From Candidatus Woesearchaeota archaeon (lineage in GTDB: Archaea > Nanobdellota > Nanobdellia > Woesearchaeales > DSVV01): a stretch of 64,000 nucleotides of DNA. How positions within the stretch are numbered: the stretch's first letter is position 1; the number at the start of each line of letters is the position of its first letter. A program made the position numbers and the translations under genes. Positions 1,696 through 56,285 of the stretch are shown here, piece by piece. The stretch is from positions 1 through 64,000 of the forward strand of contig JABJHR010000013.1 of the NCBI GenBank assembly GCA_018661705.1, in the 5' to 3' direction. The notes under the pieces are model-generated. The model ran no database searches, had not been told where the DNA came from, and worked only from the letters and a program-made list of their open reading frames with translations.

Positions 1696-4600
1696 ATGGA
1701 TCATGAATCAGAAACACTCAAGCACCCAAGTCCTAAAAAGGAAGTTTGTGGAGACTTTTGTTTAGTTGACGCAATGGAGGAATATAAAAAAGCCTTGTTT
1801 GTTGTATGTGATGGATTAAGTGGACATATGGATAGTTTTGCAAGTAAGTATGCTGCCCAAAAATTAGATGAAAGAATAAGACGAAGATTCTTTAACAAAG
1901 ATCAAACACCACTTCAAGAAATAATAAAAATTGAAATTGATAAAATTGATCAAGAATTAAAAGCAGAACATGCAGGAACAACATTAGAATTTGCATTGTT
2001 AGATCAGGAAACTAGAATCTTGCACACAGCCCATACAGGAGATTCCAGAATTTATTTAATTGAAGGTGGCATGCAAGAAAAACCTTTTGTTGACTCAGAA
2101 TTGATATTAAGAACAATAGATCAAGCACACGGAGATGCAGACAGGGGACCATCTAATTGTTTAGGAGAAGGTGCACCAACAAATGTATTATATGATCGTT
2201 TTGATTTAAATCAAATGGATGAAACAGTATTTATACTTATGTGTACTGATGGACTAACTGCTCACAAAGTAACACATAGAGAACTTGAGAAAACATTTCA
2301 AGATTATAGTATGAATCAAGAATTAAATATAATTACTGACCGCTATAAACATTTAACAAGATATCCTTTTGATATGATAGTTCAAGGATTGGAAGATGGT
2401 GGAATTACAAAGGGTTATTGGAGAAAAATATTAGCTCATTTTGAAGAGAGAGGTCATCCATTAAATAACGAAGATTATAATATGAGACGAGAATTAATTG
2501 CTCCGTTAATTCATGAAGATAATCCTGATAAATTAATATATAGAGCCTTATTTGCCGATGCATATGCAACAGCAATAAGAGGAGTTCACGATGACACCAC
2601 ATTTTTAGTAGCTGATCTTAAAGGGAGTAGACATTATTTTACTCAACAACAAGAGGAAATACTTGAAACAAGAAGTGCAGAACAAGAAGTCGCACATCAA
2701 CAAGAACTTCAAAGAATTAAAACACGAGGAAAAAGTGCAGGAAAAAGAAAAGATGAGAGAATCGGAACGTTAAATGAAGAATTACGTAGGACAAAAGCAG
2801 ACTTAAGAGCAAAAGAAACAGAGTTTTCAAGTGCATCAGAAACAATTTCTGGATTAGAAACACAAGTAAAAGATATTACAGGGGAAAGAGACACATTAAC
2901 TGAAGAAAGAGATACTTTAACTGGAGAAAGAGATACACTCCAAACACAATATGAAGAAGAACAAAGATTAAAAACAACTGCAGAAGGAGAAAGAGATGAA
3001 GAGAGAAGAATAAAAGAAGAGAAAAATGGGTTGTTGGGGGGAATTATTAAATTATTGGATATTCCAGACGCAATGTTAGAAACAGTCCAGGAATATGTTA
3101 CAGCAGTAAAAGCAGATAGAAAAACTCTTGGTGAATTAGGAGAGGAAAAAGCAAATCTTGAAGCAACAATTGAAACTATGACTCAAGAAGTAAAAGATGA
3201 GAAAGAAAGAAGAGATGTTTCAGATGAAAAAAGAGAGAAAGCATATACTGCACAAATAGGACAATTAACTACAAAATTAAGAGCAATTGTAACAGAGTAT
3301 AATAGAGTTGTTGGAATGTATAAAGAATTACAAGAGCAGCAGAAAACCATGATTCCAGTTACAGAAGTAGAGGAAATGTTTGGAGTGGTAACGAATACGT
3401 TACAAGAAAGTATAGAACGTTTTATTGATTCTTATAAAGTAGAAGCAGAAAAAGAAACAGGAAAAAGAATAGAACAAGAAGCAGGAATTGAAGAATATGA
3501 TGCCGAAGCAATTATTGCAGATGCAATTAAAGATTATGATCCTGGAGAAAGAGGCGTAGAAACAAGTGACGATGGAACTCCAAGAAGGGGAACTGGATAT
3601 CAACAAAAAACAAAAACTAGAAGATCAGATTCACCAGATAAAGGAATAACAGACGTTGCAGATTTAGATATAGAATATCTTCCAGAATCTAAAGTGCCAA
3701 ATCCTGCAAAAAAAGATATAACATCAGAACAAAATACTACAGAATTAAGTGGAAAAGGAGCAGCATCAGTAGCCTTACCAAAACCAGAGATGGTGGTTGA
3801 AGTTGATCCTGCAGATGTAAACTGGGCAAGAGAAGGAGAAAAAGAAAATTTAGAAGAAGCAACAGTTGATACTCTTGTGGAAACCCTTAATTCAAGAGAT
3901 GGTGGAAGTAAAAAACAAAAAGTTACAGAACCACAAATTCCTAAAGTTGATCCACCTAAAACAGATGCAACAAGTGTTACAGCAGGGGAACTTGCAACAA
4001 GAAATGGTGGAATGATAGGACAAGATAAAACACCACCGCCATTACCTCCTACAGCTCCAGAACCTGCTAAAGAAAGAACACTTAGTTCTTTAAAAGAGTT
4101 TATTGATTATTACAAAAGTAAAGAAGAAACAAAAGATATTCCCCATGATAAGATAAAAAGAGCCATTGTTACAGCACATTTGTTACATTTTGCTAGTTAT
4201 CATAAAAGATTTTCATATGATAAACCAGATAAAGAATTAAGAACATCTTTAGGTAAATTACATAAAAGACAAAATTCAAGGATTTATAATTTTTTTATTG
4301 GCAGAGATATTATGGAAGAGAAATCAAAAGAGAAAAAAACAATTTCTAAAAGTGAAAATAATGTATGTTTAAGTTACATTACAGATATGAATAATGCAAG
4401 GCAAACAGATTATGGTTTTAGTAGATTACAAGAGATTATTGGGAAAAATAGAACAAGAAGCTCAGAATTATCAGAAGAACTTAATGCCCCATATCATCAA
4501 GAAATTCATGCATATGCTAATGCAATTTTAATTTCGAAAAAAAATAAAAAAAAAGGGAGATGGGGGAAAAAAATATTATGGGGGACTGTAGCACTATTGG

Positions 4601-5844
4601 CAATTGCTGCAGGAGGATATGGTGTTCATTATGCAATAAATCATGAGACCGTTGTAGGTTCAGACCCTACAGCTCAATCTGAAAAAACAGATCTTTTCAA
4701 TGATAAATATCAAAAAGGAAACCAAAAATTAGATGAAGAAGAAAAGAAATTAGAAGAGAAGGAAAAAAAAGAAGAAGCTGCAAAAAAAGAAGCAAAAGAA
4801 AAAGCTGATAAAGATGTGGAAAAAGTAATTGAGGAAGAAAAGGTTAAAGAAGCAGAACTATTAAAGGCTAAAGAAGCAAAAGCTGAAAAAGCAGCATTAG
4901 CAAAAACTAAAAGATTAGAAGCACAAAAAGAAAAAGAAAGACTAGAAAAAGAGAAAAAAACAGCGATAAAAGTTAAATTAGCATCTGAAAAAGCAGCATT
5001 AGCAGCAAAAAAGAAAACAGATAAAGCAGCCGTGGCAGCTGCAAAAGCTAAATCTAAGAAAAAAGCAGCGAAAAAAATAGAAGATAGCAAAGTTGTCAAA
5101 ACAAGTGACGAACCAAGCGCAGAATACAAAAAACAGATGACAGATGCATATAAAAATGGCATTCAAAGTAGTGGAGAACAAGCAGGTGGTCTTGAAACAG
5201 CAGTTGAAACGGCAAAACCAGCTGAAGTTAAGAACGATGATCCTTATTTAATAGCATTAACGGCTGCAATTAATGGCACAGGCACTAAATATACAACATA
5301 TGCCCAAATTACAACAATATCAAATCAAGCAAAGTTAAAAGTTGTAAAAGCAACAAAATATCTCAAATCTCAAGGATATAAAATAATACCTGATGGGAAA
5401 ACATTTTATGCAGAAAAAAGTGGACAAAAAGTTACCTTTAAGGATTCTGGCGAAAACGTGGTGGTTAATGGGATATTGAAAGGAAATGTAGAAGGAAATT
5501 ACGCCGCATATATAGGGGATAATCGCCTTACAAAAGTGTTAGGAGGAATATTTTATTTAAAAAAGACTAGTGGAAATCTGTGGAAACTAATATGTAAAAA
5601 AAATAAAGAAACCAGTTGTAAGGATACATTAGAAGCTTATGATCTTACTGAAGATAACTTAGATTACACAATAAAATTGGCCATTAAGAATCAAGAGGCA
5701 AATTGTACAGAAGTTTTCAAAACAGGTTATATCCCTGTAAGTGAAAGTGACATATGTTCAAAATATGATAAAACATTAGGAGATAATATCAGAGCAGGTG
5801 TTGCTGTTGCAACAAGATTAATTCAAATAGTAAAAGGTAACTAA
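1696..5844 (+). CDS. Giant membrane-anchored PP2C-family protein phosphatase
   Basis: A PPM/PP2C Ser/Thr phosphatase fused to a long coiled coil and a membrane anchor. Residues about 20-305 carry the family motifs in order: CDGLSG (Asp39-Gly40), TGDSR (Asp116), CTDGL (Asp185) and DDTT (Asp299-Asp300). These are the metal ligands, so the enzyme should be active. Residues about 315-600 are Glu/Lys-rich coiled coil, followed by a low-complexity linker with a proline run near 780-790 and one hydrophobic segment at about 960-980. Beyond it lie an Ala/Lys/Glu-rich helical stalk (about 1000-1130) and a globular C-terminal domain. Basic residues before the segment suggest a cytoplasmic phosphatase and an outside tail. 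ATG 1696 follows an AGGAG site; the kinase gene starts 1 nt after the stop. Enzyme class is secure; topology and substrate are inference. Confidence 0.9.
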   Translation: MDHESETLKHPSPKKEVCGDFCLVDAMEEYKKALFVVCDGLSGHMDSFASKYAAQKLDERIRRRFFNKDQTPLQEIIKIEIDKIDQELKAEHAGTTLEFALLDQETRILHTAHTGDSRIYLIEGGMQEKPFVDSELILRTIDQAHGDADRGPSNCLGEGAPTNVLYDRFDLNQMDETVFILMCTDGLTAHKVTHRELEKTFQDYSMNQELNIITDRYKHLTRYPFDMIVQGLEDGGITKGYWRKILAHFEERGHPLNNEDYNMRRELIAPLIHEDNPDKLIYRALFADAYATAIRGVHDDTTFLVADLKGSRHYFTQQQEEILETRSAEQEVAHQQELQRIKTRGKSAGKRKDERIGTLNEELRRTKADLRAKETEFSSASETISGLETQVKDITGERDTLTEERDTLTGERDTLQTQYEEEQRLKTTAEGERDEERRIKEEKNGLLGGIIKLLDIPDAMLETVQEYVTAVKADRKTLGELGEEKANLEATIETMTQEVKDEKERRDVSDEKREKAYTAQIGQLTTKLRAIVTEYNRVVGMYKELQEQQKTMIPVTEVEEMFGVVTNTLQESIERFIDSYKVEAEKETGKRIEQEAGIEEYDAEAIIADAIKDYDPGERGVETSDDGTPRRGTGYQQKTKTRRSDSPDKGITDVADLDIEYLPESKVPNPAKKDITSEQNTTELSGKGAASVALPKPEMVVEVDPADVNWAREGEKENLEEATVDTLVETLNSRDGGSKKQKVTEPQIPKVDPPKTDATSVTAGELATRNGGMIGQDKTPPPLPPTAPEPAKERTLSSLKEFIDYYKSKEETKDIPHDKIKRAIVTAHLLHFASYHKRFSYDKPDKELRTSLGKLHKRQNSRIYNFFIGRDIMEEKSKEKKTISKSENNVCLSYITDMNNARQTDYGFSRLQEIIGKNRTRSSELSEELNAPYHQEIHAYANAILISKKNKKKGRWGKKILWGTVALLAIAAGGYGVHYAINHETVVGSDPTAQSEKTDLFNDKYQKGNQKLDEEEKKLEEKEKKEEAAKKEAKEKADKDVEKVIEEEKVKEAELLKAKEAKAEKAALAKTKRLEAQKEKERLEKEKKTAIKVKLASEKAALAAKKKTDKAAVAAAKAKSKKKAAKKIEDSKVVKTSDEPSAEYKKQMTDAYKNGIQSSGEQAGGLETAVETAKPAEVKNDDPYLIALTAAINGTGTKYTTYAQITTISNQAKLKVVKATKYLKSQGYKIIPDGKTFYAEKSGQKVTFKDSGENVVVNGILKGNVEGNYAAYIGDNRLTKVLGGIFYLKKTSGNLWKLICKKNKETSCKDTLEAYDLTEDNLDYTIKLAIKNQEANCTEVFKTGYIPVSESDICSKYDKTLGDNIRAGVAVATRLIQIVKGN

Positions 5845-5845
5845 T

Positions 5846-8800
5846 ATGACAATAGATAAATATGTGGATTTCATAAACCCAAACAAAACACCAGAAGAGA
5901 AAATCATTGAAATTGTCGATGGTAGAAAAACATACAAGTTTTCTAGAGAAAGCCATAGTACAAGAGGAATCAAAAAAGGACATTTTAGTAAAGTATATTT
6001 TGATGATAATTTGGAAGCATGTATTAAAGTTGGAATGGGTATTAGCTATGAAGTAGAAAGAAATGAAAGACATGTTCTAGAAAAATTATTAGAAAAAGGA
6101 ATAATTAGCCTCCCAGAAGGAAAGGATCGTAGAACAGGAGAATTTGATTATCCATTATTATTTATCCCAGAAAGACCAAAAGGAAAAAAAGATGAACACA
6201 TTGCCGTTATGAGAGATTTAGAAAGTGAAGGATGCGTATCTCTAAAAAAAGTTATGGAATTAGATCTTGCAGAAGGTGCAACACCAGAAGAAGAAAAGTT
6301 CAAATTTAAAGGAAAAGCACTTCCACTTGAACATGCTCTTGCAATTTATACAACATTATTAGGAAAGTTAAGTATTTTACATGATGACGCAGAATTAATT
6401 CATACAGATTTAAAAGCTGCAAATATTTTTGTACAATATGATAGATTAGAAAAGATTGTTCAAGATGGAGATCAAAGAAGATTTTTAGAATTAGATCATC
6501 TAAAAGATCTTAAAGTTATGGATTTTGGATTAGCAAGAGAAAGACACGAACGTTGTGAATTATTATTTAATCATGAAGTTGGTGCAATAAAAGATGCTAC
6601 TGGAGATTATTCGAGTAGTTACCAAGGAAGAAGATCAAGAGAAGTTGCATTACATAATTCAGAAATTTCCCCATTAGAATTAATGATGCTTGGTTCTAAA
6701 AATGAAAGTGCACAACCGTGGATTGACATATATGAAGCTTCAAATTTATTTGTATGGATGGTAACCGGAAGATCTGCATTTTATCTAGGGGCAAAACATA
6801 TTGAAAAATATAATGGTATATTATCTAAATGGGACATAAGTGATGAAGAAAATATTGAATTTATAAAAGAAAGCAGAAGAGAATTAGAAAGAAAAAGAGC
6901 AAAAGAAGCAAAAGAATTACTTTTAGATTGTTCAGAATGGATTCCAGAAGACATAGCAACTCAAGCAATGGGAAAAATAATAGAAAGTAAATTTGAAGAA
7001 TTTGTTAATATCATTCAAGACTCTTATTCACAGATTATTACTAGAGTTGTTGCAAGAGATGGTGCAAAACCAGAGGATGGAGAAATCATGAGTAAATTAT
7101 ATCCCATCATAGAAGCAACAACTATGCCTGATCCTAAAAAGAAAGAAAAAAATCAAGGATACCAATATAATGATGCAAAAGAGGTGTCAGGACTAATAGA
7201 AAAGATCATGTTGCAGCATCCTTCCACTTCAGACAATGACCTTGTTAGGAGAGAAGTTATTCAAGATCCAATTGTTAAAAGAAACTATTCAATTAGTTCA
7301 ATAGATGATCAAATTGTACCTGTTACTTTTTCAAAAAACCCTGAAATCAGTACTTCAATTAATGAAGGAGAAACTGCAATTTCAGCAGTTGAAATTTCTC
7401 AATTATCACAGTTACCATATGAGACTGAATCAACACATAAACTTGAGTTTAAGAGAACTTTTAAAGAACATTGGACTGAATTTAAAGCAAAATATAGTAA
7501 AATTGGAAGAGGAATTAGTTATATTTTAGGTGGAGCAGCATTATTAACAGCTCTTGCAGGAGGCATATATTTAGTTGCAAATAGTAAAGCATGTACAGAA
7601 GATGAAACAACAACAACAACTGAAAGTTATGTGATTCCTGATGCAACACCTCTAACACTTATTCAAGACACTGAAACAGTTATTAATGAACAAACACAAG
7701 ATATTATTTCCCAACCAGAAAATGAAGAAAAGGTAAGTAAAGGAAAAGAAGAAAATCCTACAACATCTCCTCTTTGGGAATCACCACAAGAGGGAGATAT
7801 GAGTATACTAAGTGGGTTTGGAGAAGACATTATAAGAAAGGGTTTTGTAAATGCAAGTCCAAAATTAGAAACTCTTCTAAAAGCTGAGAGTGCTCTTAAA
7901 AAAGATACAAAAAAATCAACAGGTGAAACTAAAATTTCTCCTCCCACTGAAGTAGTATTACCACAACCAAAACAACCATTAGAAGAAAAAGTTCAAGATA
8001 AATCAGAAAAACCAACAACTAGTATAAAAACATTAGATGGAAAACCATTGGTTACAGAAGAGAGTAAAAAACCATATAAAAAAGAAGTTAAGCCAAAAAA
8101 ACCAATAAAGAAAAAAGCACCAACTGTTTATGAATTAGTTTCTAAATCATATAACACTCATGTTTCAAAACCTGTTGAAATTAAACTTGCAGATTTAATT
8201 AGAGATAGTTGTGGATGCACAGATGTTAAATATTCAGATATTGATAGTATTTTAAAAGGGGTAGTTGAAGGACACGGGTTAACTGCAAAATACAGTGCGC
8301 GATGGGGAAAACTTACAATCACTCCTGAAAAAATAAATAAAAAACCATACCGAGGAAATACTAGTTTTACTCTCAAATTAAATAATGGTGTAACAAAGAA
8401 ATATACAGTTACCTTTTTTAATAATCCACCTGTACGAGGAGAAAAAGCAGAAGATTTAGTATTAGTGGGTGAAGAAGAAAAAGAGATGAAAATAAATCTT
8501 CAGGATTATTTTACAGATCCAGATGGAAAACCAACTGCATATAAAATCATAGGGGAGTTACAAGGAGAAGGAGAAAATAATGCTAAAGGAATAATTGCTA
8601 CACCAGTTATTAGCGGCAAATATTTAGTTATAACAGCTGAAGGAAAAGATCGACACACCATGGGTAAAAATGGACCCGTTGATCAAAGAGCAGTATTAAA
8701 AATAGTTGCCCTAGACGAAAATTTCCAAACAGATGAAAATGAAGGAGCAGTTACACTTTCAATAAGTGTTGAAGACAGAAATGATTGTCCACAACTTGCT

Positions 8801-9478
8801 AGAAGTATTGATGATGTCCTTTATATTCCCGTAGGAACAACTGTTGAAATAGGTGGTGAAGGAAATAAATCAAAACCTCTATTTAAAGATAAAGATCTTG
8901 GTGGAAAACAATTTAGAGTAACTTCAGATAATGATGATGTAAAGGTATTTGGAAAACCTGGTGGAAAGACGGTGATAAAACAAGGAAGTCTACCAACAGA
9001 CACAGTAATCCCAATTACATTATATGCACAAGATAAGCAAGAAGATTATAAAGAAGATGAAAAATGTCAAGATGAAGAAGGGAATATGATTCCTTTCAAA
9101 GCACCACAAACAACAATAAATGTATTTTATCATGGTGAAAGATCTCTTAAGTTAGGCGGGAAAAGTTTAAAATATCAAGTAAATGGTGCATCTAAAGGAT
9201 ATGCAACCGCAATAACAATAAATAGTGAAGCAATAGCTGCACTTGAAAGTAGAATTAATGCGGACCATGCAAATATAGAGGGGAAATTAGTATTTGATGC
9301 GTCTGGAAAATGTATTGCCACTAGTTTTTGTTATAAGCAAGAAAATGGGGTTTGTAATGATGAACATTATAGCGTTGGTGACCTTCAAACATTCCTAGCA
9401 AAAGAACATATAAAAATTGCCGAAGGAGATATGATAAAAAAAGGTCCAATTAGAATAGATATTAATGGGATTAAGTAA
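5846..9478 (+). CDS. Giant membrane-anchored Ser/Thr protein kinase with cadherin-like ectodomain
   Basis: Residues about 35-340 form a Hanks-type kinase: a Gly-poor nucleotide loop near 43-50, the catalytic Lys in CIKVG (Lys61), the catalytic loop HTDLKAAN (His186-Asp188-Asn193) and the metal-binding DFG (226-228). All key residues are present, so it should be active. A linker leads to one hydrophobic segment at about 557-578. The ~630-residue remainder has a Thr/Glu/Lys/Pro-rich stalk and then modules containing DYFTDPDGKP and NDCPQ...IPVG motifs typical of cadherin-like/Ig-like domains, with a few Cys. The architecture resembles bacterial receptor kinases such as PknB. It is translationally coupled to the PP2C gene (1-nt gap), so the two probably act on the same substrates in opposite directions. 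Ligand and substrates are unknown. Confidence 0.92.
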   Translation: MTIDKYVDFINPNKTPEEKIIEIVDGRKTYKFSRESHSTRGIKKGHFSKVYFDDNLEACIKVGMGISYEVERNERHVLEKLLEKGIISLPEGKDRRTGEFDYPLLFIPERPKGKKDEHIAVMRDLESEGCVSLKKVMELDLAEGATPEEEKFKFKGKALPLEHALAIYTTLLGKLSILHDDAELIHTDLKAANIFVQYDRLEKIVQDGDQRRFLELDHLKDLKVMDFGLARERHERCELLFNHEVGAIKDATGDYSSSYQGRRSREVALHNSEISPLELMMLGSKNESAQPWIDIYEASNLFVWMVTGRSAFYLGAKHIEKYNGILSKWDISDEENIEFIKESRRELERKRAKEAKELLLDCSEWIPEDIATQAMGKIIESKFEEFVNIIQDSYSQIITRVVARDGAKPEDGEIMSKLYPIIEATTMPDPKKKEKNQGYQYNDAKEVSGLIEKIMLQHPSTSDNDLVRREVIQDPIVKRNYSISSIDDQIVPVTFSKNPEISTSINEGETAISAVEISQLSQLPYETESTHKLEFKRTFKEHWTEFKAKYSKIGRGISYILGGAALLTALAGGIYLVANSKACTEDETTTTTESYVIPDATPLTLIQDTETVINEQTQDIISQPENEEKVSKGKEENPTTSPLWESPQEGDMSILSGFGEDIIRKGFVNASPKLETLLKAESALKKDTKKSTGETKISPPTEVVLPQPKQPLEEKVQDKSEKPTTSIKTLDGKPLVTEESKKPYKKEVKPKKPIKKKAPTVYELVSKSYNTHVSKPVEIKLADLIRDSCGCTDVKYSDIDSILKGVVEGHGLTAKYSARWGKLTITPEKINKKPYRGNTSFTLKLNNGVTKKYTVTFFNNPPVRGEKAEDLVLVGEEEKEMKINLQDYFTDPDGKPTAYKIIGELQGEGENNAKGIIATPVISGKYLVITAEGKDRHTMGKNGPVDQRAVLKIVALDENFQTDENEGAVTLSISVEDRNDCPQLARSIDDVLYIPVGTTVEIGGEGNKSKPLFKDKDLGGKQFRVTSDNDDVKVFGKPGGKTVIKQGSLPTDTVIPITLYAQDKQEDYKEDEKCQDEEGNMIPFKAPQTTINVFYHGERSLKLGGKSLKYQVNGASKGYATAITINSEAIAALESRINADHANIEGKLVFDASGKCIATSFCYKQENGVCNDEHYSVGDLQTFLAKEHIKIAEGDMIKKGPIRIDINGIK

Positions 9479-9544: not shown

Positions 9545-10933
9545 TTAATATTCTAATTTAAGTGTTGTTAAGAAACCATAAAAAGGTATTTGATCATATT
9601 TAGGAAGAAACTCATTTCCTTCAAGATTTCCTTCAGACATTCCTACAGCCATAACAAAACTAGGCTTCAGATAAATGTTTAAATCATCTGCAGATCTGAT
9701 TTGTACTTTTAGTGGCATCCCAACATCCATAATAACACTATTTTCTCTGTTAAAAAAACCATGAATATTTGAATCTGCTTTTGGCCCATGATAATACTGG
9801 CCACCAAGTGAAACTCCTAAGAGATCAAATTCCGCACCCTTTACATGAATTCTTCCAGGAGAAAAAAAGGAACTTATCTCTGCTCTTATACCAATCCCTT
9901 CTGTTTTATTCTCTACAAGATTATAATCAAATAAAAGTTCAGCCCGATAACTAAAATCTAATATCTGATCATTATCAAACAGATTTCCACTAATTTCATC
10001 CCCATAAAGTTTAAATCGCATGCTAAGTATATCTGTGAAGTTATGATCATTAATAAAATCTAATAAAAAAGTAAATCCAATTGGTACTGTTCTAAATACT
10101 CCTCTTGCTTCAAGTCCAGCACCGACAGTAAATTGATATGAAGAAAAATCTTCATTGCCAGACATGCCGGCAATCATTACAGGGTTTAATTGATTAACAA
10201 AAGGTAAACCCATTTTTATTGATAAGTCATACTCTGGAAAGGCTCTGAGTTGATTATTAATATCTCCTGAATTTGCAATCATTCGTTGATATTGTAATGT
10301 TGGATTAACAATTAATTTAGGATTAACTTTTTTAATTTTAAGTTTTACTTCTTTTGATGCAGTTTTATCAACAGGAAATCTTGAAACCACTTCTCCTTCT
10401 TTGTTTTTCAATAAATATGCAATTTTGAATATATTTTCACCATAACCATGGTTTCTTGGCTCAATTTTCACAAGATATAGATCTGAACCATTTAACCCTT
10501 TCTTATCACGTATAATAGTAACACCCTTAACATCAGTAACTTTTTTATCTAGATGCAAAGAAAAATTCTCATCATCACATACCTTAACAGTAACATTCGA
10601 ATGACAATAACCTGGATTATTTCTTTGATCCACATTAACGCATTTAGTTGCATTAAGAATTTTGGGTCTACAATACCTTTCACGTGCATTTGCTGTTGAT
10701 GGTGAAAACAAAAGTGAATATCCTAAAATAGCTGCACCAATTGTAGTTACGGTTGCAATTGCTGCTTTTTTTGCAATAGTTCCAGCATTTCTTCCTAAAG
10801 ATGAAAATGCAGAAGTGAGTTTAGAATAAAGATTATCAGATCTTTTAGTAGAACTTGTGTCAGCATCCATACCAGAATCTATAGAACCATTCGCAAGAAT
10901 TTTATTATCATTTAATACGTTTTCTAGGTTCAT
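9545..10933 (-). CDS. Exported protein with predicted beta-barrel C-terminal domain
   Basis: No family is recognised. A Ser/Thr-rich cytosolic start is followed by a hydrophobic segment (about residues 52-74) ending in an AxA-type cleavage site (STANA|RER). Residues about 85-220 contain several Cys and look like a small globular domain. From about 235 to the end, alternating hydrophobic/polar strands with aromatic belts (GVSLGGQYYHG, GFLTTLKLEY) recur, and the chain ends in an aromatic residue, as in bacterial outer-membrane barrels. It lies convergent to the kinase gene and has its own TATA-like sequence upstream. A barrel in an archaeon would be unusual, so the fold is inference; a beta-sandwich surface protein is the alternative. 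Confidence 0.75.
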   Translation of the reverse strand: MNLENVLNDNKILANGSIDSGMDADTSSTKRSDNLYSKLTSAFSSLGRNAGTIAKKAAIATVTTIGAAILGYSLLFSPSTANARERYCRPKILNATKCVNVDQRNNPGYCHSNVTVKVCDDENFSLHLDKKVTDVKGVTIIRDKKGLNGSDLYLVKIEPRNHGYGENIFKIAYLLKNKEGEVVSRFPVDKTASKEVKLKIKKVNPKLIVNPTLQYQRMIANSGDINNQLRAFPEYDLSIKMGLPFVNQLNPVMIAGMSGNEDFSSYQFTVGAGLEARGVFRTVPIGFTFLLDFINDHNFTDILSMRFKLYGDEISGNLFDNDQILDFSYRAELLFDYNLVENKTEGIGIRAEISSFFSPGRIHVKGAEFDLLGVSLGGQYYHGPKADSNIHGFFNRENSVIMDVGMPLKVQIRSADDLNIYLKPSFVMAVGMSEGNLEGNEFLPKYDQIPFYGFLTTLKLEY

Positions 10934-49111: not shown

Positions 49112-50161
49112 ATGAGCCTTACTAATATAGTTGGAGATTTATATCATAAGCACTTTTATAGACATTACTCTAATGTAATGGGAAGAGTTAGTGATACATT
49201 TAAGTTTACAGCATTAGAAGCACTAATTGCACCTGTAGTTTATTTACCAGAAACATTAATAGCTTATTATGCGTTTAATAGTATCTTGTCTTCTTTTAAT
49301 GGACCAGGAAATCCTACTGCGAATGGTTCACCAGGAGGGCTTGTCATGAATCTTTTAATGGGATTAGCAGGTGCAGCAGGATTATATGTAACAACCTATG
49401 GTGTAAATCATTTGAGAACACCATTAACAAAAAAATTAGAATTAAAAGAAAAGAAAATAGATATTGAGAAAGAACTTAATTATACTATTGGAAAATTAAA
49501 TAAATTATCGGAGTCTCCTGAACTTGAGCAGAAAGAATATCATGATTTAATAAAAGAAAATATGGAAAAAGTTCTTGAAGATATTTATGATTACAAAGTA
49601 AGAGTTCCAAAAAGAGTTAAAACAACTATTTTCAGAAAAGTTATGAGAAAAGATGGTTGGATGGGTATGATGAATCCAGTATTAACAGAAGTTATCTCAG
49701 CTTGTCCTGATAACTTACAAATTGATATTCACTCTTCCACCCATGAAAGAACCCATATTACAGGAGTATGTAATGAATCAGAAGCAGAATTATTAACATA
49801 CATTGCATTACATAAAACAGATAATCCTTCATTACAATATCAAGCATATTTTATGAGATTAGAAAGTTTAATAAGTCAATATGGTTATAGAAAATTTGAA
49901 TCCTATTGCGAAAAAACACAATTAAATGAAAGAACATGGCAAGAAATAGAGGATATTGATAAATACATGAAAGAAGCAGAAAAATTAGGTTGGTATGGAA
50001 AAATAAGAAAAGGTATTGGAGATACAATTAGATATATTCTTCCCAAAAGAAAAAAATCTAAAAAAGAAAGAATAAGTGCAAGAATTGATAAAGTTTATAT
50101 TTCTAGACCATTGATTTTAATGAGTGCATATGATCCACCTACCGCAAATACAGTTAAATAA
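49112..50161 (+). CDS. Membrane protein with HExxH motif, DUF3810-like metallopeptidase
   Basis: Two hydrophobic segments near the N-terminus (about 30-58 and 75-95) are followed by a ~250-residue soluble part. Residues 211-215 read HERTH, a HExxH zinc site, in the context THERTHITGVCNESEAELL. The downstream Glu (222-226) fits the third ligand, and this Gly..E.EA pattern recalls DUF3810/gluzincin peptidases. Arg-rich segment RVPKRVKTTIFRKVMRK precedes it. It starts as a leaderless gene after the tRNA. Substrate unknown; membrane-associated proteolysis is the best guess. Confidence 0.7.
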   Translation: MSLTNIVGDLYHKHFYRHYSNVMGRVSDTFKFTALEALIAPVVYLPETLIAYYAFNSILSSFNGPGNPTANGSPGGLVMNLLMGLAGAAGLYVTTYGVNHLRTPLTKKLELKEKKIDIEKELNYTIGKLNKLSESPELEQKEYHDLIKENMEKVLEDIYDYKVRVPKRVKTTIFRKVMRKDGWMGMMNPVLTEVISACPDNLQIDIHSSTHERTHITGVCNESEAELLTYIALHKTDNPSLQYQAYFMRLESLISQYGYRKFESYCEKTQLNERTWQEIEDIDKYMKEAEKLGWYGKIRKGIGDTIRYILPKRKKSKKERISARIDKVYISRPLILMSAYDPPTANTVK

Positions 50162-50199: not shown

Positions 50200-50868
50200 A
50201 TGTCAAATGAATTATTATGGATTATATTATTGCTAGTAAACTGTTTTATGGTAGTTTTTGCATATAGGTTTTTTGGTAAGACAGGATTGTATGTATGGAC
50301 TGCAGCTGCTGTAATATTAGCTAATATTCAGGTTTTAAAAACAGTGCAATTATTTGGAATGGTTGCAACGTTAGGTAATATTATTTATGGAAGTCTTTTC
50401 TTAAGTACTGATATATTATCAGAAAACCATGGTAAAAAGGCAGCAAGAAAAGCAGTATGGATTGGTTTCTTTGTGTTAATTGCAGCAACAATTATAATGC
50501 AAATTTGTTTACAATTTATTCCAGATGCAAGTGATTTTGCACATGGTTCATTAGAAGTATTATTTGGATTTTTACCAAGGATTGCATTAGCAAGTTTAAC
50601 TGCATACTTAATTTCACAAAACTTTGATGTTTGGTATTTTCATTTTTTGAAGAAAAAAACAAAAGGAAAATATCTTTGGTTAAGAAATAATATGACAACA
50701 ATGACATCACAATTCTTTGATTCATTAATATTTGTAATGATTGCTTTCTGGGGAGTATTTCCTAACACAGTATTATGGGAGATCTTTCTGACAACTTATG
50801 TATTAAAATGGATTGTAGCTTTAATAGATACTCCTTTTATTTATTGGGCAAAGAGTATGAAAAATTAA
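50200..50868 (+). CDS. yhhQ: Queuosine precursor transporter (YhhQ/QPTR family)
   Basis: 222 residues, six to seven predicted membrane segments. The signatures LSTDILSENHGKKAARKAVWIGF and SQFFDSLIFVMIAFWG are diagnostic of the YhhQ (DUF165) family, which imports queuosine precursors (preQ0, preQ1 or queuine). It is leaderless. The bacterial-type TGT at 54313 and QueH at 55743 would use the imported base. It converges on the TrmB gene, overlapping its end by 4 nt. Confidence 0.93.
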   Translation: MSNELLWIILLLVNCFMVVFAYRFFGKTGLYVWTAAAVILANIQVLKTVQLFGMVATLGNIIYGSLFLSTDILSENHGKKAARKAVWIGFFVLIAATIIMQICLQFIPDASDFAHGSLEVLFGFLPRIALASLTAYLISQNFDVWYFHFLKKKTKGKYLWLRNNMTTMTSQFFDSLIFVMIAFWGVFPNTVLWEIFLTTYVLKWIVALIDTPFIYWAKSMKN

Positions 50869-51608
50869 GATTCACATCTATCCCACATATGTTTCCAAAA
50901 AGTTCTGTAACCATCTGCCAACAATTTATTCTTTAAAACAAATTGAATTGGTTCTTCAAATAATTGTCCTGGTTTGGCGCCTACAAAAGTAACAACATAA
51001 TCTCCGAATATATCTACCATAGTATTGCTTGAATATTCCTTAGGTAAAAATTTGTATGGTTTACCTACTAATTTTAGGATTTCAGGTTTTTCTGTTTTAA
51101 CTTCATGATCAAAGATATGATAAAACTTAATACCAAGTCTTTTTCTTTCTCTATCAAAATGTTTAAGATAATGCTTAAGCCTAGGATCAAGCCACATTGC
51201 TTTTGCTCCCATAAAATAAACAGGTTGTTTTTGCTCAAGAATTAATTGAAGATAGGTTTTGACACCCTCAATCCCCCTAAATATATGTGCTTCTGCTTCA
51301 GCTTCAACTGCCTTATGCAATTTTTTCATATCAGGAAGAAAAGAATCTAAAGCTGTTTCTTTTTCCTTTATAATCTCTTTTAACCTTTCAGGAGAAATTG
51401 CCTTGAATAATCGCTCACCTTTGGTAAATGTTTCAGATGCTAGACCTTTTTCAATTAATTTGTTTAAAGCATCATAGACATTCCTCCTATGAACATTGGA
51501 TTTGATAGATATATTACTTGTATTAGACTCTCCTAAGTAAAGTAAAGCTTCATATACCCTTGATTCATTCAATGTGAGACCTATTTTCTGAAGGATTTCT
51601 TGATACAT
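50865..51608 (-). CDS. TrmB-family transcriptional regulator
   Basis: Winged helix at the N-terminus (IGLTLNESRVYEALLYLG, recognition helix SNVHRRNVYDALNKL), a coiled coil, then the TrmB C-terminal domain beginning EAHIFRGIEGVKTYL. It is closest in layout to the TrmB gene at 18880 (EAHIFQGLKALFDIL). ATG 51608 matches family starts; the open frame extends further upstream without family similarity. Two palindromes (51641-51653, 51685-51700) lie just upstream, between this gene and the exported protein gene at 51829, which it may regulate. Confidence 0.92.
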   Translation of the reverse strand: MYQEILQKIGLTLNESRVYEALLYLGESNTSNISIKSNVHRRNVYDALNKLIEKGLASETFTKGERLFKAISPERLKEIIKEKETALDSFLPDMKKLHKAVEAEAEAHIFRGIEGVKTYLQLILEQKQPVYFMGAKAMWLDPRLKHYLKHFDRERKRLGIKFYHIFDHEVKTEKPEILKLVGKPYKFLPKEYSSNTMVDIFGDYVVTFVGAKPGQLFEEPIQFVLKNKLLADGYRTFWKHMWDRCES

Positions 51609-51653: not shown

Positions 51654-51684
51654 AACACCATTATTTATATAGTTTTCTAATATT

Positions 51685-51700
51685 GGTGGTACATACCACC
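51685..51700. promoter_or_regulatory. Palindrome GGTGGTA-CA-TACCACC, candidate operator
   Basis: Perfect 7-bp arms between the TATA-like elements of the divergent genes at 51608 and 51829. Confidence 0.5.
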
Positions 51701-51828
51701 CCAAAAGTTTATATGGTTTGAGGCTAGTTAGTATTGTAAAGGAGTAACAAAGCAAAGAAGGAAGTTACTGCTTAGAAAGTTCTTGTAAGCTAGATAATGC
51801 TAGCGAGAGCTGTAAGGAGGTAAACAAA

Positions 51829-52611
51829 ATGTCATTAATAAAGAAACTTAGAGAATGGAGAGTAAGACATAAAGTTGCAGCTGCAATAATGGAAGGTGCA
51901 ACATTATATGCGGGAACAAACGCAGCAGTTGCAGCAGTTGAAACATTTGTACAACCACAACAACAAATAGTTGAAACAATTGTGGACACAGTAATTCCAT
52001 CAGCACAAGCTGATTATTTTGATGGATGTCGTGGCCCAGAGATGTTTCAGTTAGATCAAAGAGTAACTTTAAGTGAAGGAACACCTGGTTATACATTGCT
52101 ACCAAAAGTTTTCATTGATCAAAATGAAGATGGACATAGTTTTTTTGGTGTAACACCTTTTATGTACACACCTGGACAAAAACCGGCAGTTGGTGTCGGA
52201 GCTGGAATGTTCGTTGATTTAGGAGAGCATGTAAAAATGCTAGGAGTGGTTCCAGTAGTTTACAATACAGAGGGTGAAGCATTAAACATAAACCCAACTG
52301 TGTATGCAACAATTATGGCTGGAAAATTTTTAATTGATCCAAGAGTTAGTTATTTAGCAAGCATTAATGAACAAGGAACAACACATAATTTAGCATTTGG
52401 AACAACTGTTGGATTAATGATTGATAATGTTGTAATTGGTGGAGATGTTGAAACTGCAATAGATCCAGCAAATGCACAATCAGAACAACTTGAAGGAAAC
52501 CTAAAGTATGGTGGAATCATTAGAGTTGATCTTGATAAGCAACATAAGAACTGGATGCAAGCTTACTTTGGAAAAGATTCAGTTACTGTTGGCTTTAGAG
52601 CTAACTTTTAA
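51829..52611 (+). CDS. Exported protein with predicted outer-membrane-like beta-barrel
   Basis: 260 residues. The basic start and Ala-rich hydrophobic segment end in PSAQA|DYF, an AxA signal peptidase site near residue 60. The rest consists of alternating strands with Gly/aromatic girdles (FFGVTPFMYTPG, AVGVGAGMFVDLG, LAFGTTVGLMID) and ends in VTVGFRANF. A C-terminal Phe with hydrophobic residues at alternate positions is the insertion signal of bacterial outer-membrane barrels. AAGGAGGT gives a strong ribosome site. It is divergent to a TrmB gene. The barrel is inference from pattern and very unexpected in an archaeon. Confidence 0.75.
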   Translation: MSLIKKLREWRVRHKVAAAIMEGATLYAGTNAAVAAVETFVQPQQQIVETIVDTVIPSAQADYFDGCRGPEMFQLDQRVTLSEGTPGYTLLPKVFIDQNEDGHSFFGVTPFMYTPGQKPAVGVGAGMFVDLGEHVKMLGVVPVVYNTEGEALNINPTVYATIMAGKFLIDPRVSYLASINEQGTTHNLAFGTTVGLMIDNVVIGGDVETAIDPANAQSEQLEGNLKYGGIIRVDLDKQHKNWMQAYFGKDSVTVGFRANF

Positions 52612-54312: not shown

Positions 54313-55599
<1,287 letters not shown>

Positions 55600-55742: not shown

Positions 55743-56285
55743 ATGAAAAAACTACTATTACACACATGTTGTGCTTGCTGTTCTACTGAAGTAATTGAAA
55801 GATTAAAGAAAGAGTATGATATTACCTTGTTTTTTTCTAATTCAAACATTTATCCAATTGAAGAATATGAAAAAAGGTTAGAAGAAGCAAAAAAGATTGC
55901 AGAGATTATGGAATTAGACTTAGTTGAGGATGAATATTTAAGTTTAGAATGGGAAATGTTTGTTGGTGGTTTAGAAAATTATAAAAAAATGCCAGAAGGT
56001 GGTAGAAGATGTGAACTTTGTTTTAAATTTAACTTAACAAGAACTGCAAAGTTTGCAAAAGACTTTAAATTTGATTTGTTTACAACAACACTTACTATTT
56101 CTCCACACAAAGATCATGAAATGATTAATAAGATCGGAGAGAAAATCAGCAAAAGATATAATGTAAATTTTTTAAAAAGTAATTTTAAAGAAAACAATGG
56201 ATTTAATAAATCATTAGAACATTCTAAGAAACATAAACTGTATCGGCAGAATTATTGCGGCTGTAAATATAGTAAAAGAAAATAA
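55743..56285 (+). CDS. queH: Epoxyqueuosine reductase QueH
   Basis: 180 residues (QueH/DUF208). Conserved Cys clusters are HTCCACCSTE at the start, RRCELCFKFN near residue 95, and YCGCK near the C-terminus, which bind the iron-sulfur/metal centre. QueH reduces epoxyqueuosine to queuosine as the last step of queuosine synthesis. Together with YhhQ and the bacterial-type TGT it indicates a queuosine pathway. QueA, which makes epoxyqueuosine, is not in the window. A leaderless or weak-RBS start at 55743 is likely. Confidence 0.95.
   Translation: MKKLLLHTCCACCSTEVIERLKKEYDITLFFSNSNIYPIEEYEKRLEEAKKIAEIMELDLVEDEYLSLEWEMFVGGLENYKKMPEGGRRCELCFKFNLTRTAKFAKDFKFDLFTTTLTISPHKDHEMINKIGEKISKRYNVNFLKSNFKENNGFNKSLEHSKKHKLYRQNYCGCKYSKRK

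Follow-up and report, generated by a model that had tools for sequence, protein, structure and literature searches.

Bacteria, mitochondria, and plastids are the known settings of membrane beta-barrels, whose presence normally goes together with an outer membrane and with Omp85. To our knowledge, Omp85 is thought necessary wherever membrane beta-barrels occur in these three settings. The closest described structures are the monomeric 12-stranded oligosaccharide porins KdgM and NanC and the bacterial channels of COG4313, which correspond to the Pfam family PF13557 (Phenol_MetA_deg) and are represented by the structure 4rl8. Ihomp1 of Ignicoccus is a small, largely helical protein that is not known to form a beta-barrel. 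It belongs to an outer-membrane pore complex, a pore in an archaeal outer membrane according to Burghardt et al. 2007 as cited in PMC4243693. Several archaea have double membranes, among them Ignicoccus, members of the ARMAN group, and the SM1/Altiarchaeum lineage (PMC4243693, PMC8871954). The PopA superfamily of Bdellovibrio comprises lipid-trapping membrane barrels, and a possible distal relative was mentioned in the DPANN Altiarchaeales (PMC12228718). The literature searched contained no report of membrane beta-barrels in Woesearchaeota, the mention in Altiarchaeales being the only one of a possible distant relative, and none of a second membrane in Woesearchaeota.

Archaeal regulators of the TrmB/TrmBL1 type sense sugars and use palindromic sites next to the BRE/TATA elements (PMC4158304). 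Published TrmB proteins activate transcription from sites upstream of BRE/TATA and repress it from sites lying over or downstream of these elements (PMC4158304, PMC4706686).

Herein, we analyzed a window of 64,000 nucleotides from a Candidatus Woesearchaeota genome of 1.65 Mb (92.8% complete). The gene at positions 51829..52611 (+) had been read from the sequence as coding for a barrel-like protein, either gained from a bacterium or representing an archaeal barrel class not described before. The fold prediction, amphipathicity, and family conservation reported below support the barrel reading, and the best explanation, which we consider rather probable, is a 12-stranded channel that resembles porins, passes solutes through the envelope of the archaeon itself, and is controlled by a TrmB-type regulator.

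Sequence, family, and predicted fold of the barrel protein

The gene starts with ATG, is preceded by a Shine-Dalgarno-like AAGGAGGT (51814..51821, +), and encodes 260 aa. The protein had no match in Pfam, NCBIfam, or PHROGs, and its family was recognized by single-sequence, profile, and motif searches. The protein can be divided into a leader of residues 1-61 (51829..52011, +), a putative signal sequence ending AQA|DYF; the start of the mature protein, residues 62-72 (52012..52044, +), with the family signature D-Y-F-D-G-C-R-G-P; and residues 73-260 (52045..52608, +), a predicted 12-stranded transmembrane beta-barrel that ends in the conserved R-x-N-F. The site PSAQA|DYF, placed near residue 60 by the initial annotation, is present, and the putative cleavage would fall after Ala61, which is invariant in the relatives. 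The 61-residue leader of the window protein is unusually long, basic, and only weakly hydrophobic with an A-x-A|D site (by eye). Leaders of about 60 residues characterize its subgroup, whereas in distant relatives the A|D-x-F site is preceded by an ordinary leader of 22-30 residues. Another protein encoded in this genome (L002:1501-2355; G000:C1:131176) has 51 N-terminal residues that are 49% identical to the barrel leader; its body is different and beta-rich, possibly a further barrel.

The C-terminus VTVGFRANF was likewise found as annotated. With its last residues SVTVGFRANF, the protein shows the C-terminal aromatic feature of a beta-signal, and it is the only one among the 43 genes of the window whose product ends in Phe. 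The "textbook" C-terminal Phe is not universal in the family: the aligned members end mostly in F or L, and in some the NF is followed by a few charged residues.

Across the 22 aligned sequences, Ala61 and Pro70 were invariant, and Asp62, Gly66, Arg68, and Asn259 were each at least 90% conserved. The family can be described by the signature A-D-x-F-D-G-x-R-G-P...R-x-N-F/L, with conserved glycines and aromatic residues scattered between. When 99 genomes were searched with the window protein alone, eight of them, its own genome counted, had relatives. A profile of seven sequences detected the family in 22 of the 352 genomes searched in the order; with a profile of 22 sequences, it was detected in 19 of 371 genomes of a phylum sample, two of which (L059 and L060) lie outside the order in other families of the same class, each with a divergent TrmB gene. 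When a single sequence was used to scan genome contigs no relatives were retrieved, whereas a motif scan based on the alignment, covering approximately 85,000 bacterial and archaeal species, yielded nine relatives, all labeled Candidatus Woesearchaeota or "archaeon" and none bacterial. No match was obtained among phages, plasmids, and viral contigs, and a viral or plasmid origin of the gene was rejected. These results show that the barrel resemblance is not due to chance and that a conserved archaeal family stands behind the window gene; judged by sequence, its known members are so far confined to Woesearchaeota and closely related DPANN archaea. It is patchy, occurring in about 6% of genomes, indicating that it is not an essential envelope component.

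The structure was predicted with AlphaFold2 from an alignment of 10 sequences, the window protein and nine relatives. The model had 12 strands over residues 73-259, with a pLDDT of about 80 and a pTM of 0.63 (moderate confidence). The model of a relative that is 28% identical (L039) had the same 12 strands and a mean pLDDT of 80.7, and both models were meander (up-and-down) barrels with an even strand number. In the VIA-align comparison, all top matches of the window model were bacterial outer-membrane barrels or designed transmembrane barrels, with Z values of 20.4 for EspP, 19.5 for 4rl8, 18.8 for KdgM, 16.8 for NanC, and 15.5 for the designed 12-strand barrel 9fdg. Foldseek matches agreed. 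The best matches of the L039 model included VhGalP, KdgM, and 4rl8 (Z 17.3 for 4rl8). Profile searches of PDB sequences with the family gave nothing useful.

When residues were shuffled within strands 5000 times, no shuffle reached the alternating hydrophobicity of the window protein, and that of L039 exceeded 4999 of 5000. The register expected to face the lipid carried no charged residue (0/60 in the window protein and 0/58 in L039); since it was chosen as the more hydrophobic one, with the lipid-facing side deduced rather than taken from coordinates, the shuffle test and not the charge count carries the weight. Closure of the barrel follows in the same indirect way from full-length alignment to closed 12-strand barrels. 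Taken together, the fold is very probably a transmembrane beta-barrel: a predicted fold lacking a closed barrel would have refuted the initial annotation, but the two models were 12-stranded barrels and did not refute it.

Compared with the described systems, the window model resembles the COG4313 channel 4rl8 in its 12 strands and similar size (196 residues aligned at 2.9 A), but the hosts are archaea with no detected Omp85 and the proposed regulation by TrmB is private to them. It also shares strand number and size with KdgM and NanC (KdgM, 164 of 171 residues at 2.4 A), whereas sequence identity is 8-12% and sequence searches detected no homology to the solved members, so that the match is structural only. 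PopA, with 16 strands, a FadL-like plug, and a pentameric assembly, differs from the 12-stranded archaeal family. A relationship to MspA, suggested by weak matches in two relatives (E 0.07-0.15), was taken as chance.

The PF13557 profile did not match the window protein at E=1 or at E=0.1, and the protein was therefore not filed in that family; one of the 22 aligned family members did match. In an archaeal sister subgroup that shares the D-x-F-x-G-x-R-G-P motif (L023, L024, L026, and L027), L024, the same gene as L009, matched PF13557 above the gathering score (E=2.6e-9), and the profile of this subgroup matched the core-family profile with a probability of 96.5 (E=7e-10). Two further barrel candidates of the PF13557 type in the order (L040:1228-2040 and L042:1474-2268) have no DG.RGP motif and adjoin TrmB genes of another subfamily, and a barrel beside a TrmB gene may be a repeated theme.

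The TrmB-family regulator and its putative operator

Divergent to the barrel gene lies a gene for a TrmB-family regulator (50865..51608, -; 247 aa from ATG; the listed ORF extends to 51755 from a TTG start). It belongs to a subfamily that we call HRRNVYD, and its orthologues adjoin barrel genes. The regulator has the winged helix of TrmB and TrmBL1 (PF01978, E=4e-16), but it scores far below the NCBIfam equivalog cut-offs, and its C-terminal part, in which a sugar-binding domain was looked for, had no Pfam match.

Between the two genes, we located a putative palindromic operator, GGTGGTACATACCACC, at 51685..51700. The TATA box of the barrel promoter, TTTATATG (51708..51715, +), begins 7 bp after it with conserved spacing, and a likely TATA box of the divergent TrmB promoter, TATATAAA (51664..51671, -), was recognized by eye. 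A palindrome next to BRE/TATA is the arrangement described for TrmB/TrmBL1 (PMC4158304), but the site itself, GGTGGTANNTACCACC, is new and replaces TACT-N3-AGTA or TATCAC-N5-GTGATA.

The operator is the sole site of the genome within one mismatch, with one further site at two mismatches elsewhere. Within two mismatches, it was found upstream of all 16 main-family barrel genes with enough upstream DNA, two further loci being left out because they are cut by contig ends. Across the main-family loci, the arms GGTGG...CCACC were invariant except at one inner position, and most promoters had a TATA-like box 7 bp past the operator on the barrel side. In the PF13557-like subgroup, a longer palindrome of related sequence lies beside the subgroup's own TrmB gene. 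A site within one mismatch occurred in 27 of 232 genomes, including 11 of the 14 sampled genomes with a barrel (Fisher p=2e-9, kinship not corrected); in one of these 11 (G088), the site and the barrel are at different loci.

We also considered whether the operator is specific to the barrel, and this was rejected: in about a dozen genomes, an HRRNVYD-type TrmB gene with the site was present and no barrel was detected. The site thus goes with the regulator, which has the barrel as one target among others. Strict co-evolution of regulator and barrel in the main family was likewise not supported, as the distances correlated weakly (r=0.14, 441 of 5000 permutations). In two genomes (L070 and L083), the same pair of TrmB gene and operator is divergent to a gene for an SSF sodium:solute symporter with the same 7-bp spacing, a hint at transport; most of the non-barrel genes beside the operator do not encode transporters. 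In many barrel loci (L032, L035, L036, L038, and L039), the TrmB gene upstream of the barrel apparently shares an operon with a nucleotidyltransferase-like gene and a gene of 110 aa.

On the side of the barrel gene, the operator stops immediately upstream of the BRE. By analogy with the published TrmB proteins, activation of the barrel promoter would be likelier than repression on account of this position, and steric repression is possible.

Origin, membrane location, and competing explanations

Origin from a bacterium was assessed by comparing the barrel gene with its neighbors. Its codon usage (rank 27 of 43 window genes) and GC3 (0.162 against a mean of 0.165) were typical, whereas its overall GC was higher (0.364 against a gene mean of 0.312, sd 0.024); in view of the typical GC3, we read the latter as an effect of amino-acid composition. 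Compared with the sister species, dN/dS was about 0.25 (dN 0.12 and dS 0.50 for the mature part), indicating purifying selection. The neighborhood of Vut_1, TrmB, barrel, TGT, and QueH is largely kept in sister MAGs. Recent acquisition from a bacterium, or contamination of the MAG by a foreign contig, would agree with the raised overall GC and with a fold that is otherwise bacterial, but the flanking genes are archaeal, barrel genes adjoin archaeal TrmB genes throughout many of the order's families, and the searches gave no bacterial relative, so that we regard this explanation as extremely improbable. Of the two origins initially proposed, these findings make an archaeal barrel class more likely than a recent bacterial import. 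A deep bacterial origin is conceivable, given that a sister subgroup matches PF13557.

No homologue of Omp85, POTRA, or TamB was found in the genome of the window (92.8% complete) or in 98 relatives; bacterial controls were positive, and a very diverged form could escape this search. For these 99 genomes of the order, there is thus no known insertion route for the barrel, which would use an unrecognized route, insert spontaneously, or go into the membrane of another cell. Insertion free of Omp85 in some Woesearchaeota, either into a second membrane of their own that bears porins or into the membrane of a partner, seems to us plausible, if somewhat short of probable.

In the porin-like reading, the leader would take the protein through Sec and be cut after Ala61, and the mature chain would fold into an up-and-down barrel, hydrophobic on the outside and polar in its lumen. 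The barrel would insert outside the cytoplasmic membrane, most likely into the archaeon's own outermost membrane, and would pass small solutes. The divergent regulator would bind the palindrome between both promoters and set the expression of the barrel in response to a solute ligand.

The location in the archaeon's own envelope has to be weighed against export of the barrel, free or in vesicles, into the membrane of a host or prey as a nutrient leak, where the BAM machinery of a diderm partner could insert it via the C-terminal F. Keeping a C-terminal F or L in a lineage with no Omp85, POTRA, or TamB of its own would be understandable in this way. Cultivated DPANN archaea are ectosymbionts (PMC11291902, PMC11329633), and PopA of Bdellovibrio is a precedent of a barrel reported to insert into a prey membrane (PMC12228718). 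However, neither a delivery system nor information on a host was found, the charged tails after the terminal F in some relatives weaken the BAM signal, and TrmB control, though compatible with either location, points to nutrient sensing. We consider export into a partner unlikely.

The function as a solute channel also has competitors. A surface adhesin, an enzyme, or a structural envelope protein with a plugged barrel would account for the strong conservation of residues 62-72 (DYFDGCRGPEM), which precede the first strand, are among the most conserved, and could be a plug or an active site; the fold matches moreover include non-porin barrels, namely autotransporter beta-domains, OMPLA, and LpxR. 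Against such a role, the top full-length matches of the smaller relative L039 were oligogalacturonate porins, and the operator faces solute symporters in two genomes; a barrel of this kind is rather improbable. That AlphaFold2 mistook a soluble or S-layer-associated barrel for a membrane one is very unlikely: the pTM is moderate and archaea are normally monoderm with an S-layer, but the alternating hydrophobicity is strong, the hydrophobic register is free of charge, and the best matches were all transmembrane barrels with Z values well above those of common arrangements. A barrel family that is conserved in archaea, comes with a regulator of its own, and occurs in lineages with no detectable Omp85 raises three testable questions, namely whether DPANN archaea have a second membrane, how a barrel is inserted without BAM, and whether channels are placed in partners.

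Neighboring genes and a further barrel-like protein

Genes of queuosine salvage lie close to the barrel gene, encoding a Vut_1/YhhQ-type transporter (50200-50868), TGT (54313-55554), and QueH (55743-56285). Of 336 genomes of the order, 39 have QueH, and its distribution does not follow that of the barrel, although it is close to the barrel in the two nearest relatives. A functional link between queuosine and the barrel was therefore rejected, and the proximity was taken as local synteny. The gene at 49112-50161 (+) encodes a DUF3810 protein (PF12725, E=3e-29), a mostly bacterial family.

The other barrel-like protein of the window (9545-10933, -) is 462 aa long. Its C-terminal half is rich in beta structure, and it also contains a Cys-rich segment and, internally, a stretch resembling a signal sequence. 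It had no Pfam match and is not detectably homologous to the barrel protein at 51829-52611. Its relatives occur in two genomes of the same family (L029 and L030), between like neighbors. At 1696-9478, close to genes for AAA-type ATPases, a large phosphatase-like protein is encoded beside a large protein that resembles serine/threonine kinases and has extracytoplasmic repeats, and this arrangement is partly kept around the relatives in L029 and L030.
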